From contig NZ_BOMV01000105.1 of the NCBI RefSeq assembly GCF_016862375.1, positions 1 to 64,000 of the forward strand: a stretch of DNA of 64,000 nucleotides. The letters are read 5' to 3'. The DNA comes from Paractinoplanes rishiriensis (GTDB taxonomy: Bacteria > Actinomycetota > Actinomycetes > Mycobacteriales > Micromonosporaceae). Made by a program: the position numbers and the translations under genes. How positions within the stretch are numbered: the stretch's first letter is position 1; each line of letters begins with the position of its first letter. The notes beneath the pieces are model-generated. The model was not told the origin of the DNA and made no database searches. It saw only the letters and a list, made by a program, of their open reading frames with translations. Below, in pieces: positions 4,332-62,415 of this stretch.

Positions 4332-4424
4332 TATGCTCACCGACGGGCCGTGACTGGCGCGTTCGGATGGGGAACCATCGTGGAGCGGCCCCGTCGACCG
4401 ACGACCTGCCGTGCGCCTGGGCCT
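4332..4424 (+). promoter_or_regulatory. ZTP (pfl) riboswitch of glyA, with -10 element
   Basis: A -10-like TATGCT lies at 4332-4337, putting the transcript start near 4344. The next bases match the ZTP/ZMP riboswitch: GGGCCGTGACTGGCG (4345-4359), a GGGGAACCATCG joint (4369-4380), CGGCCC (4386-4391) closing the first stem with GGGCCG, and the 3' signature CCGTGCGCCTGGGC (4409-4422). Riboswitches of this class sense AICAR phosphates, which accumulate when 10-formyl-tetrahydrofolate is short, and raise expression of one-carbon genes. The glyA ribosome binding site (GGGAGG) starts about 16 bases later. Confidence 0.88.
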
Positions 4425-4447
4425 CTGCACCGTGATAGGGAGGTCCT

Positions 4448-58645: not shown

Positions 58646-59212
58646 GTGACCGATCGGGCGCGTCCACCTGGGCGCAACTGGAGCACGATCGCCGCGGTTC
58701 TCGGCGGTCTTGCTGCGCTGATCACGGCCGTCGTCGGGTTGTCCACGTTCATTGCCAATCAGTTCGGCGACGCACCCAGAGCCACGCCCGCCGCCACCAC
58801 CAAGCCGCCCGCCGTGCAACCGGCGACCGCCGCCTCGTCCGCACCCGCGGCCGGTGGCTGGCGCGAGGTCTGGAGCCGGGAGTTCGTCCTGGACACCACC
58901 GGCGTCCTGCTCGACTCCGACCAGCCGGTGCGGGGCACGGGGGCGTTCCACGTGATCTCCGGTGGCCCGATGATCTCGCCGGCCGGTGGGGCCGCGATCG
59001 CCGCACTGCCCGCCGGTCAGCCCGCCACCCCGGACGCCTGCGACGAGCGGGTCACCACCCACTCCGCCGACAACGTGACGATGGACAGCGGCAAACGGGT
59101 CTGTGTCCGGACGCCGGCCGGCCGGGTGGCGTTGCTGGTCGTCGAGGGTGCCACCGGCGACGTGAACGCCGGCTGGACGGTCCGGGCCACGGTCTGGCAG
59201 CCCGCCTCATGA
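58646..59212 (+). CDS. Membrane-anchored protein with an extracytoplasmic domain of unknown function
   Basis: A 188-residue protein: a short cytoplasmic N-terminus, one transmembrane helix at about residues 14-37 (IAAVLGGLAALITAVVGLST), a Pro/Thr/Ala linker (40-68) and a small extracytoplasmic beta domain with two cysteines (DACDERVTTHS; GKRVCVRTPAGR) that could form a disulfide. I do not recognise the family. GATAGT lies four bases before the GTG. The stop overlaps the oxidoreductase ATG by four bases, so the two are expressed together. Confidence 0.7.
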   Translation: MTDRARPPGRNWSTIAAVLGGLAALITAVVGLSTFIANQFGDAPRATPAATTKPPAVQPATAASSAPAAGGWREVWSREFVLDTTGVLLDSDQPVRGTGAFHVISGGPMISPAGGAAIAALPAGQPATPDACDERVTTHSADNVTMDSGKRVCVRTPAGRVALLVVEGATGDVNAGWTVRATVWQPAS

Positions 59213-60342
59213 CGGCGCTCGGGGTGGGGGTCGTCGGGTTCGGCTGGATGGGCCGGGTGCACACGCAGGCCTATGCGCGGGTGCCGCACCACTATCCGGA
59301 CGCGCCCCGGGTCTTGCTGGTGGCGGTGGCTGACGACGTGCCGGGGCGGGCGCGGGAGGCGGCCGGGCGCTACGGCTTCACGGCCGCCACCGAGGACTGG
59401 CGTGATCTGGTCGGCGACCCGCGCATCCAGGCCGTCAGCATCACCGTGCCGAACTTCCTGCACCGCGAGGTCGGGGCCGCCTTCGCCGCGGCCGGGCAGC
59501 ACATCTGGATCGAGAAGCCGGTCGGTCTGTCGGCCGCCGATGCCCGTGCGATCGTCGGCGACGTTCAGGTGGCCGTCGGCTTCAACTACCGGAACGCGCC
59601 CGCGGTCGAGAAGGCGCGCGAGCTCCTGCTGGCTGGACAAATCGGAAACATCACTCATGCCAGATTCCGCTTCCTCAGCGACTACGCGGCCCATCCGCTC
59701 GGTGCCCTGTCGTGGCGCTTCGAGCGGGAGCGCGGCGGGAACGGCGTACTCGGTGACCTTGGTTCGCACGGCGTCGATCTGATCCGCTATCTGCTCGGCG
59801 AGATCGACGCCCTGGTCGCCGACACCGCGGTGTTCATCGCCGAGCGCCCGCGCCCGACCGCGGCGACGGCCGGCCACCAGCGGGGGAGCGGTGCGCCCGG
59901 CCCGGTGCAGAACGAGGACTACCTCGGCGCCCTGCTGCGGATGTCGTCCGGCGCGCGGGTCACGCTGGAGGCGAGCCGGGTGGCGGTGGCCGAGCAGAAT
60001 GCGTACGGCTTCGAAATCCATGGGACCCGAGGCGCGATCGGCTGGGACTTCCGGCGCATGGGCGAACTCGCGGTGGCCGCCGGCGAGTCCTACCAGGACG
60101 AACCCGTGCGGACCCGGTTCACCGGTCCGCCGGACGGCGAGTTCGGCGCCTTCCAGCCGGGTGCCGGCATCCCGATGGGCTACGACGACCTCAAGGTGAT
60201 CGAGGCGCACCGCTTCCTGCGCTCGATCGCCACCGGCACTCCCCAGGGCGCTACGCTGGCCGACGCCATCCGGTGTGCCGAGGTCCTGGACGGCATTGCC
60301 CGGTCCGCCGAGACCGGTGCCTGGATTACTTTGCCTGCCTAG
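59209..60342 (+). CDS. Gfo/Idh/MocA-family oxidoreductase
   Basis: A 377-residue NAD(P)-dependent sugar dehydrogenase-like enzyme. The Rossmann motif is GVVGFGWMGRVHTQAY; the lysine motif IWIEKPVGLSAADA and VGFNYRNAPAVEKARELL are in place, and the helix with GDLGSHGVDLIRYLLGEI carries the usual active-site histidine. Members oxidise sugars, inositols or related polyols; no substrate can be named. It overlaps the small membrane protein gene by four bases. A weak hairpin (GACACAG / CTGTGTC, 60348-60372) follows its stop. Confidence 0.92.
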   Translation: MTALGVGVVGFGWMGRVHTQAYARVPHHYPDAPRVLLVAVADDVPGRAREAAGRYGFTAATEDWRDLVGDPRIQAVSITVPNFLHREVGAAFAAAGQHIWIEKPVGLSAADARAIVGDVQVAVGFNYRNAPAVEKARELLLAGQIGNITHARFRFLSDYAAHPLGALSWRFERERGGNGVLGDLGSHGVDLIRYLLGEIDALVADTAVFIAERPRPTAATAGHQRGSGAPGPVQNEDYLGALLRMSSGARVTLEASRVAVAEQNAYGFEIHGTRGAIGWDFRRMGELAVAAGESYQDEPVRTRFTGPPDGEFGAFQPGAGIPMGYDDLKVIEAHRFLRSIATGTPQGATLADAIRCAEVLDGIARSAETGAWITLPA

Positions 60343-60420
60343 GAAACGACACAGGATGCATCGAGCTGTGTCAATATCACAGGGTGCCCGCTCCCGTGCC
60401 GTTCGTGTCGCAACGACTTC

Positions 60421-60471
60421 TTGACTCAATTGAAACAAGTCGATACGGTGCGGGTCAGGAAAGCGCTTACC
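60421..60471 (+). promoter_or_regulatory. Promoter with a LacI/CcpA-like operator and no conventional gene downstream
   Basis: TTGACT (60421-60426), a 17-base spacer and TACGGT (60444-60449) form a promoter, followed by GGAAAGCGCTTACC (60458-60471), a near-perfect palindrome with one mismatch and the AAGCGCTT core of sugar-responsive repressors. Any transcript would enter the region described at 60529-60759. Confidence 0.7.
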
Positions 60472-60528
60472 TATGTACTCGAGTGGGCCGCTCCCCCGGT
60501 CCGGGTCCGCACCGCATCGGAGGTTCTG

Positions 60529-60585
60529 ATGTTCATGTGCACCCCCACGCGGCTGCCACTCCCGTCCCGTACCGCGCCACCCTGA
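60529..60585 (+). CDS. Candidate 18-residue small peptide ORF
   Basis: ATG 60529 opens an 18-codon frame (MFMCTPTRLPLPSRTAPP) that ends with TGA at 60583-60585. CGGAGG lies six bases before the ATG, and a promoter with a LacI-type site is upstream. The peptide has no recognisable family. It may be a leader peptide, a small secreted or regulatory peptide, or the stub of a lost gene. The ribosome binding site and the terminator 140 bases downstream are the main support. Confidence 0.35.
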   Translation: MFMCTPTRLPLPSRTAPP

Positions 60586-60655
60586 CCAGCGGGCATCGGC
60601 ATGATCTGATCCCCATCCCCCAACGCCGATCCGATCCAGCCCGCCCGTCCCCGGG

Positions 60656-60685
60656 CCGGGAGGCGAAGTCCACCACGCCTCCCGG
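60656..60685 (+). other. Ten-pair hairpin inside the small transcription unit
   Basis: CCGGGAGGCG (60656-60665) and CGCCTCCCGG (60676-60685) pair perfectly around a ten-base loop. It lies between the 18-codon ORF and the terminator, which makes the RNA highly structured. Confidence 0.6.
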
Positions 60686-60725
60686 CTCCGCCAACCCTCC
60701 ACATACCGCCGACGTCCACGGCGGT

Positions 60726-60759
60726 ACCGGGCGGCCCGAACCCGAGCGGGCCGCCCGGT
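60726..60759 (+). terminator. Strong terminator-like hairpin closing the small transcription unit
   Basis: ACCGGGCGGCCCG (60726-60738) and CGGGCCGCCCGGT (60747-60759) form a perfect 13-pair stem with an eight-base loop. No conventional gene ends here; it lies about 310 bases after the promoter at 60421. Confidence 0.75.
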
Positions 60760-60965
60760 GTGGTGGCCCGGCCAGCCATCACCACCCCATAGAAGGCCTC
60801 CTGACCAGGGGCCGACCACACCGGCCGGCTGGCACCGACCAGGCTCTGCCCTTACCTCCGCGCCGGTCGCCGCGGGCTGAGGGCAAGGCACCCAGCCGGC
60901 AGGAATCCATAGAGGTAGCCCGTCCACCACCACCACCACCAACCGACCCCGGACCCCACTCTCAT

Positions 60966-61645
60966 CGCCTCCGCGCCGACCGGGCCAAAGGCGGCGATGG
61001 GCGGTAGGGCTCCGGTTCCCGAGGCTCCGACTCCGCCTGGGCTGGCGGCGCCGGACCACCTGGGTCTCCTGACCTGTCGCTCCCCGCTGACCGGGCTGGC
61101 GGCGACGGGCCGGCGGGACCTTCGGCTCGTCGCTCCACGCCACTCCGGGCTGGCGGCGCCGAGCCGATGGGATCCCTAGCCTGTCGTCCCTTGGCATCCG
61201 GGCCCGGGGGCGACGGGCTACTGGATTCCCCGGCCTCCTCGTCATTCCCGGGCCCTCTCGTCGCATGCCTAACCGGGGCAGGCGCCGACGGGCCGGTGGG
61301 ATTCAAGGGGTTGTCGCCTCATGCCTGACCGGGGCTGGCGGCGACGGGCCGGTGGGATGGCAGGGCTTGTCGCTTCACGCCTGACCGGGGCTGGCGGCGA
61401 CGGGCCGGTGGGATGCCAGGGCTTGTCGCCTCACGCCCGACCGGGGCTGGCGGCGACGGGCCGGTGGGATGCCAGGGCTTGTCGCCTCATGCCTGACCGG
61501 GGCTGGCGGCGACGGGTCAGTCGGTTGCCCAACTTCATCGCGCCACACCGACCGGGCCAACGGCGACCGCCCGGTCGGATCCCAGGCCCATCGCCTCGCT
61601 CCAATCCGACCGGGTTGGCAGGGGCGGTGCGGCGCTTGTTCCGTT
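60966..61645. repeat. Imperfect tandem array of about eleven 56-bp units
   Basis: Units at 61259-61314, 61315-61370, 61371-61426, 61427-61482 and 61483-61538 are each 56 bases and the central three are nearly identical. Flanking units (about 60966, 61023, 61078, 61131, 61185 and 61539 on) are 53-74 bases and more diverged. The core reads GACCGGGGCTGGCGGCGACG then GGCCGGTGGGATGCCAGG and CTTGTCGCCTCA. GGCGAC and GTCGCC within each unit can pair. Because 56 is not a multiple of three, the array cannot be a protein repeat in one frame. It ends about 260 bases before the Fur gene. Confidence 0.88.
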
Positions 61646-61908
61646 GTCCCTGCCGGCGGCGGGGAACGAGGCAACCGAGGCCTGGGGCCGGCGGCATCGC
61701 AGCGACCCTGCGTACCGCGAACCACTGCTGACCGGCCGCCGCTCCAGCGGCCATCCCCGGCTCCCGCTTCCCCGAGCGCGGAGTCACTACCTCTCACCGT
61801 TTTCGACGTATTCGACCAGCACGAGCCGGGCTTCGTCGCGCCCGTGCCGGCCGACACCACCAGGGACCAGGGCCGACGGCCCACCTCCAAGCTTGTCCGG
61901 GAGATGCC

Positions 61909-62376
61909 ATGACTTCCAGCACGTATGCCAGCAAAGGGGTCGCACTTCAGACCGCACCGAACGCCTTCAGCGCCGAACGCCTGCTGCGCCGGGCCGCCCT
62001 GCGGGTCACCCGCCCGCGGGTCGCGGTGTTCAACGCGGTGCACGAACATCCCCACCTCGACACCGACTCGATCATTCGCCTCGTCCGCGGAGACCTCGGC
62101 GACGTCTCCGTGCAGGCGGTCTACGACGTGCTGCGGGCGCTCACCGCGGCTCGTCTGATCCGGCGCATCGAGCCGGCCGGTTCGGTGCCGCGCTACGAGA
62201 CGCGGGTCGGCGACAACCACCACCACGTCGTGTGCCGGTCCTGCGGGACCATCGCCGACGTCGACTGCGCCACCGGCACCGCACCCTGCCTCACGGCTTC
62301 CGACCATCACGGGTACATGATCGACGAGGCCGAGGTGGTTTTCTGGGGCATGTGCCCCGCCTGCTACCGCTCCTGA
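61909..62376 (+). CDS. Fur-family metalloregulator (FurA/CatR/PerR-like)
   Basis: A 155-residue Fur-family repressor. The winged helix is at residues 25-90 (LRVTRPRVAVFNAVHEHPHL; VSVQAVYDVLRALTAARLI). The HHHVVCRSCG segment and the end CPAC give two CxxC pairs (C109/C112 and C149/C152) for the structural zinc. The region DHHGYMIDEAEVVFWGMCP resembles the peroxide-sensing FurA/CatR group, which normally precedes a catalase-peroxidase gene; here no catalase follows. GGGAG lies five bases before the ATG. A strong terminator follows at once. Confidence 0.9.
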   Translation: MTSSTYASKGVALQTAPNAFSAERLLRRAALRVTRPRVAVFNAVHEHPHLDTDSIIRLVRGDLGDVSVQAVYDVLRALTAARLIRRIEPAGSVPRYETRVGDNHHHVVCRSCGTIADVDCATGTAPCLTASDHHGYMIDEAEVVFWGMCPACYRS

Positions 62377-62415
62377 AAGGTGGGCCGCCTTCCACGGAGG
62401 GCGGCCCAACCTTTT
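62376..62415 (+). terminator. Terminator after the Fur-family gene
   Basis: AAAGGTGGGCCGCC (62376-62389) pairs with GGCGGCCCAACCTTT (62400-62414) with one bulge, and the hairpin runs into CTTTT, giving a classical intrinsic terminator that overlaps the stop codon by one base. Confidence 0.88.

Follow-up and report, generated by a model that had tools for sequence, protein, structure and literature searches.

A transcription unit without a gene body: the very probable remnant of a pectate lyase gene in Paractinoplanes rishiriensis

Elements of the interval and their surroundings

What is a transcription unit that appears complete, from promoter to terminator, and yet has no room for a gene of conventional size? 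The stretch of DNA analysed here, 64,000 nucleotides long and hereafter called the window, poses this question at 60421-60759. A first-pass annotation described there a promoter, a LacI-like palindrome, a Shine-Dalgarno sequence with an 18-codon open reading frame (ORF) and two hairpins, and proposed a sugar-regulated small RNA, a micro-peptide or the orphaned promoter of a lost sugar operon. We found all of these reported elements in the sequence, and compared them with the corresponding loci of five relatives (genomes G004, G009, G013, G020 and G088). The features, with the assignments argued for below, are as follows.

59209-60342, + strand: intact gene for a Gfo/Idh/MocA oxidoreductase, the upstream neighbour (Pfam PF01408/PF02894/PF22725)
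60421-60449, + strand: promoter TTGACT-N17-TACGGT, assigned to the lost lyase gene (sequence; alignment with five relatives)
60458-60471, + strand: putative pectin-regulon operator of LacI type, GGAAAGCGCTTACC, which overlaps the expected start of transcription, 6 of 7 pairs matching
60472-60528, + strand: 5′ leader with Shine-Dalgarno sequence, kept ahead of the lyase in the relatives but mostly absent in G013 save for the Shine-Dalgarno part (alignments)
60529-60535, + strand: start codon of the lyase frame and the bases just after it, ATGTTCA (ATGTCCA or ATGTCTA in the relatives)
60536-60588, + strand: interior of the scar, comprising most of the 18-codon ORF and its TGA at 60583-60585 (weak alignment)
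60589-60609, + strand: final six lyase codons with the stop, GCGGGCATCGGCATGATCTGA, 19 of 21 bases matching, in the same frame as the ATG
60655-60686, + strand: lyase terminator hairpin, 11 perfect pairs, arms GCCGGGAGGC and GCCTCCCGGC (fold z −2.97)
60726-60759, + strand: second hairpin, 13 perfect pairs, GC-rich, without a T-tail (fold z −4.7)
61909-62376, + strand: gene for a Fur-type regulator, the downstream neighbour

Alpha-1,3-glucanase-like and sugar-epimerase-like genes lie further upstream of the Gfo gene. On the other side, the Fur-type gene, which has relatives in all 67 of 67 genomes, starts 1.3 kb beyond the scar, past both strong hairpins of the interval and a repeat array, a 56-base tandem repeat of 4.5 copies at 61264-61516. 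Inspection by eye also revealed a perfect 7-base inverted repeat, GACACAG/CTGTGTC, at 60348-60372 between the Gfo stop codon and the promoter, which is possibly a terminator or a regulator site. Far from the interval, a ZMP/ZTP riboswitch at 4340-4429 scores above the Rfam gathering threshold. The ORF listing contains longer frames that run across the interval, and the one crossing frame put to Pfam (116 aa, minus strand) gave no match.

Judged by motif statistics inside the window alone, the unit would remain unconvincing. Specifically, the −35 hexamer TTGACT (60421-60426) and the −10 hexamer TACGGT (60444-60449), 17 bases apart, agree with the consensus at 8 of 12 bases (5/6 and 3/6), and a scan of 59400-62400 for consensus forms returned no sigma-70 promoter and no T-tailed terminator. 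The operator pattern, with two mismatches or fewer allowed, occurs once in the 64-kb window against 0.35 occurrences expected, and at least once in 32 of 100 shuffles. Perfect stems of at least 10 pairs (loop 3-14) number 11 in the 64 kb, including both stems of the interval. That the unit stands above chance is instead settled by its conservation in relatives.

Both ends of a pectate lyase gene

A search of 60343-60800 against 60 genomes yielded a promoter-leader match in four genomes of the same genus, and the leader of one relative, searched against 300 family genomes drawn evenly from a larger group, had a match in 6, the genome of the window included. In all five relatives named above, the promoter, operator, Shine-Dalgarno sequence and ATG run straight into a PL1 gene encoding 287 to 334 residues, and PF00544 (pectate lyase) was present in all three of the lyases put to Pfam. 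The promoter of the window, found as first described, aligns with those of the five relatives, G013 and G020 carrying the variants TTGACG and TACCGT ahead of the lyase. The Shine-Dalgarno sequence, inside CATCGGAGGT (60515-60524), and the 18-codon ORF (60529-60585, from the ATG at 60529 to the TGA ending at 60585) likewise stand as reported, the ATG following the end of GGAAAGCGCTTACC by 57 bases. The first-pass annotation had itself set an intact sugar gene behind the same promoter against a functional reading, and the lyase in other species of the genus is such a gene; because it lies directly behind the same promoter there, the interval reads as a deletion scar.

Two further features of the leader may be recorded. 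The stretch at 60485-60506, GGGCCGCTCCCCCGGTC-GGGT, is strongly kept before the lyase in four relatives as well as in the window and is absent in G013; it is a possible extra regulatory element. The Shine-Dalgarno sequence and start codon also pair as a small hairpin (60515-60531 in the window), and their sequence is nearly invariant among most relatives.

How specific is the association between leader and lyase? The closely related PL1 lyase type occurs in 5 of 66 other genomes of the genus (G013 included), in all five behind the leader. When the G013 lyase served as query, the other four genes behind the leader showed 70-93% amino acid identity. A second PL1 gene of G020 shares 74% identity with the G013 lyase and has no leader, so identity alone fails to define the ortholog. 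The remaining PL1 matches listed reached at most 70% identity, and the longer ones at most 67%.

The surroundings of the lyase differ among the relatives. In G013 and G020, two of the five, an orthologous Gfo gene (79-80% identity; L133/L134, L024/L028) lies directly upstream of the lyase, as it lies upstream of the interval in the window; this is not so in G004, G009 and G088. Among the best 80 of 438 Gfo loci, some of which end early at contig ends, the exact operator and the lyase are both found in the same two only (L024, L028). The gene 3′ of the lyase in G004, G009, G020 and G088 has only a distant match, at 42% identity, in the genome studied here.

The 3′ end of the gene is present as well. 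The last 21 bases of the lyase are identical in all five relatives, and the next best place for them in the 64 kb matches at 15 of 21 bases on that strand and at 16 on the opposite one. When 60586-60700 was aligned with the lyase 3′ ends, the score was reached by 0 of 500 shuffles for G004, G009, G020 and G088 and by 1 of 500 for G013. The hairpin arms GCCGGGAGGC and GCCTCCCGGC recur after the lyase stop codon, identical in G004 and G009 and one base off in G088; the spacer before them is 21 to 25 bases longer in the window than in these three. What had been described as a 10-pair hairpin is therefore real, with 11 perfect pairs, and it is the terminator of the lyase. The "perfect 13-pair terminator" does have its 13 perfect pairs at 60726-60759, but it lacks a T-tail and has no match at the lyase loci of the relatives, and as far as seen it appears to lie outside the ancestral lyase unit. 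The stretch around it, 60706-60786, has short GC-rich matches elsewhere in its own genome and contributes 14 of the 23 matches listed in the 60-genome search, as if similar hairpins were common.

By eye, the terminator hairpin of G013 (L133, 8592-9584) and G020 (L134, 9027-10019) is unrelated to that of G004, G009 and G088, which suggests that the lyase 3′ flank may have been exchanged. Counting against the lyase reading, the interval shares its Gfo context with G013 and G020 and its terminator with G004, G009 and G088, where the lyase sits elsewhere. Since the relatives that share the Gfo gene and those that share the terminator are different ones, the history of the locus includes rearrangement.

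Between these ends, the body of the gene is missing. When four of the five lyases were searched against 60343-61908 by tblastn, no credible match to the body appeared, the lowest E being 0.10. The genome as a whole contains 14 PL1 matches, the best at 60% amino acid identity to the G013 lyase and the top DNA match at 70%, and hence no equally close copy elsewhere in the draft assembly. The ATG and the stop of the remnant are in one frame and span 81 bases, compared with 993 to 1005 in the full-length relatives, so the net loss amounts to 912 to 924 bases. A TGA now breaks this frame after 18 codons.

The scar interior is less legible. Global alignment with the lyase gave a z of 2.65 for G009 and of 0.7 to 1.5 for the other four. 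Aligned with the signal-peptide stretch, 60532-60588 reached a score that was also reached by 4 (G009), 35 (G004), 46 (G013), 91 (G088) and 121 (G020) of 500 shuffles; for windows of the same length in the lyase body, the corresponding numbers were 0 for G004, G009 and G013, 2 for G020 and 3 for G088. The interior at 60536-60588 is possibly an eroded signal-peptide stretch. With no secure alignment to the lyase, it leaves the left breakpoint undefined and makes more than one event probable in the history of the scar, which weighs against the lyase reading.

The lyase gene of G009 (L137, 7139-8002, C95) is itself damaged. About 47 codons are lost in frame near its C-terminus, the joint of this loss is the word GCGGGC, which is also found at the right end of the loss in the window, and an internal stretch of unrelated residues points to possible frameshifts. 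With this separate loss and unrelated stretch in G009, damage has struck the lyase gene on more than one occasion; as a guess, the deletions may stem from recombination between short repeats.

The operator and a predicted pectin regulon

The LacI-like palindrome noted after the promoter proved to be a recurrent site in the genome. Its exact sequence occurs at six sites in the 10.9-Mb genome, against 0 for the reversed control. The five sites outside the interval adjoin two PL1 lyase genes, one PL3 lyase gene, a gene resembling rhamnogalacturonan-lyase family 11, and the intergenic region between a LacI-family gene and a Gfo-Idh gene. At the family 11-like gene, the operator lies within the originally called frame and before a plausible later start; at the LacI-family/Gfo-Idh site, a PL1 gene is 11 kb away. 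The latter locus (L132; G000 C71:106000-125500) has the appearance of a pectin-use cluster, combining the LacI/Gfo operator with the PL1 gene, and by a guess from inspection it may also hold pectinesterase-like and uronate-reductase-like genes.

In eight relatives we counted 45 operator sites, whereas the reversed control gave 0 in seven of them and 1 in G034. The sites examined were the 16 of 45 for which loci were returned, and all 16 lie at pectinolytic genes or at the LacI/Gfo pair: 10 beside genes for pectate or rhamnogalacturonan lyases, 5 at the LacI/Gfo pair, and 1 at the intact G088 counterpart of the interval. The Pfam check of these sites covered one coding-like frame per site, with its start less than 450 bases away and pointing away from the operator; at some sites, L157, L160, L166 and L169 among them, it took in one of the two sides that carry a frame. 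The LacI proteins at the five LacI/Gfo sites of relatives share 71-85% identity. Since copies of the operator adjoin pectinolytic genes or a LacI gene both in its own genome and in relatives, its gene neighbours support its assignment as a pectin-regulon site.

In a published analysis of LacI-family regulators, in the portion available to us (PMC4052901), more than 75% of sites lie 140 to 30 bases before the start codon, and ExuR, KdgR, UxaR and UxuR are listed for glucuronate and galacturonate. The predicted regulon resembles the LacI-family sugar regulons described there in its even palindrome with a central CG, in its position within the 140-30 base range and in the presence of a site at the LacI gene itself. 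We found no description of a LacI pectin regulon for Actinoplanes in the titles and abstract openings searched. As a by-product, the analysis thus offers a usable prediction: a compact pectin regulon in Actinoplanes, with GGWAAGCGCTTWCC as its marker and a LacI gene at one of its sites.

A gene very probably eroded from within

Taken together, we consider it very probable that the interval is the remnant of a gene for a secreted PL1 pectate lyase, belonging to a LacI-controlled pectin regulon of an Actinoplanes-type genome, that underwent an internal loss of ~0.9 kb net. Established directly are the homology of both ends to intact genes and their order, the absence of the body, the absence of an equally close copy and the regulon neighbours of the operator. 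The internal loss would have taken nearly all of the coding region. The promoter, operator, leader, Shine-Dalgarno sequence and ATG would have remained 5′ of it, and the final six codons with the stop and the terminator hairpin 3′ of it. The suggestion of an orphaned promoter of a lost sugar operon was thus right in kind, but the loss concerns a single pectate lyase gene, not an operon, and it is internal: the promoter, the start and end of the gene and the terminator are all still there.

Under this reading, the C71 LacI protein would repress the promoter and pectin breakdown products would release it, and a short transcript of ~0.2 kb, containing the 18-codon frame and ending at the lyase terminator, would then still be made. 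Pectin-induced transcription of this kind is plausible because the surviving signals carry no lineage-specific change. The transcript would be without function, and the remnant may survive either as a recent deletion or as a harmless one. The draft state of the assembly (181 contigs, 5.56% estimated contamination) counts against the deletion reading, as does the fact that the lack of genome-specific changes in the elements (0/53, see below) is also predicted by a functional one. We regard the unit as securely explained by ordinary gene decay, which has left an unusually well preserved remnant.

It is very unlikely that the shell has been kept by selection, whether as a pectin-induced short RNA or peptide or as an operator that titrates the pectin LacI repressor. 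Less likely again is the narrower form, in which selection retains the remnant for a working product, a pectin-responsive small RNA or an 18-residue peptide; such a product would be compatible with a deletion origin and opposes only the lack of function. In its favour, 0 of 53 element columns are changed in the window compared with 23 of 111 in the remaining aligned columns (Fisher p 7e-5), the 53 being the positions shared by three relatives in the promoter hexamers, operator, Shine-Dalgarno sequence, ATG and stem arms. However, these elements were already under constraint in the intact gene, so that most of the constraint, and the contrast with it, is older than the deletion; the 3′ spacer part of the contrast also depends on an alignment that is itself uncertain. 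The one clear measure of change since the deletion is given by the C-terminal codons and stop, where 2 of 21 bases differ, and compared with these the 0/53 is not significantly lower (p 0.08). The column test is too weak for a claim of function, and recent loss explains 0/53 equally well.

The small RNA and the micro-peptide of the first-pass annotation both lack positive evidence: the first hairpin is the lyase terminator, and the 18 codons, including the ORF interior, have no counterpart in the relatives searched, five of which encode lyase there. A new small-RNA family was considered as well and rejected, with no Rfam family at gathering score in the interval and with the leader, and the leader plus ORF, folding no better than shuffles (z 0.8 and 1.9). 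If the shell were nevertheless transcribed and selected, it would amount to a dead enzyme gene recast as a regulatory element, one acting on the regulon to which that gene once belonged.

Lower still we place an assembly artefact, in which the lyase body was dropped when similar PL1 genes collapsed in the draft. Such a collapse is conceivable with 181 contigs and 14 PL1 matches, but it is expected to join near-identical stretches. The scar instead has 53 bases in its interior with no clear counterpart in the relatives, a stop in frame, two C-terminal codons that have changed and, relative to G004, G009 and G088, a 3′ spacer lengthened by 21 to 25 bases. A negligible chance is left for the promoter, operator and hairpins being unrelated, through coincidence or in the service of the Fur-type gene at 61909: motif scans alone do not raise the promoter and terminator above chance, but both ends of a known lyase gene occur in their proper order, and the Fur-type gene is 1.3 kb on, past the two hairpins and the repeat array.

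The locus illustrates how a gene that has lost its middle can pass for a "complete transcription unit without a gene", and how a comparison of the two ends with relatives decides such cases. The titles and abstract openings searched held no description of this lyase-gene remnant. With the Actinoplanes PL1 genes of G004, G009, G013, G020 and G088 it has the promoter, operator, Shine-Dalgarno sequence, start and C-terminal codons in common, with three of them also the terminator and with two the upstream Gfo gene; unlike them, it is without the coding body. In the part of Kuo and Ochman 2010 (PMC2916853) available to us, most young bacterial pseudogenes are described as having ~100% identity upstream, regulatory regions as being small mutational targets, and deletions as the main force of pseudogene erosion. 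The window resembles the eroded pseudogenes described there, with a gene broken by deletion and an upstream region that is near-intact. Unlike them, as far as that part describes them, it has lost more than 90% of the coding length and kept both regulatory ends.
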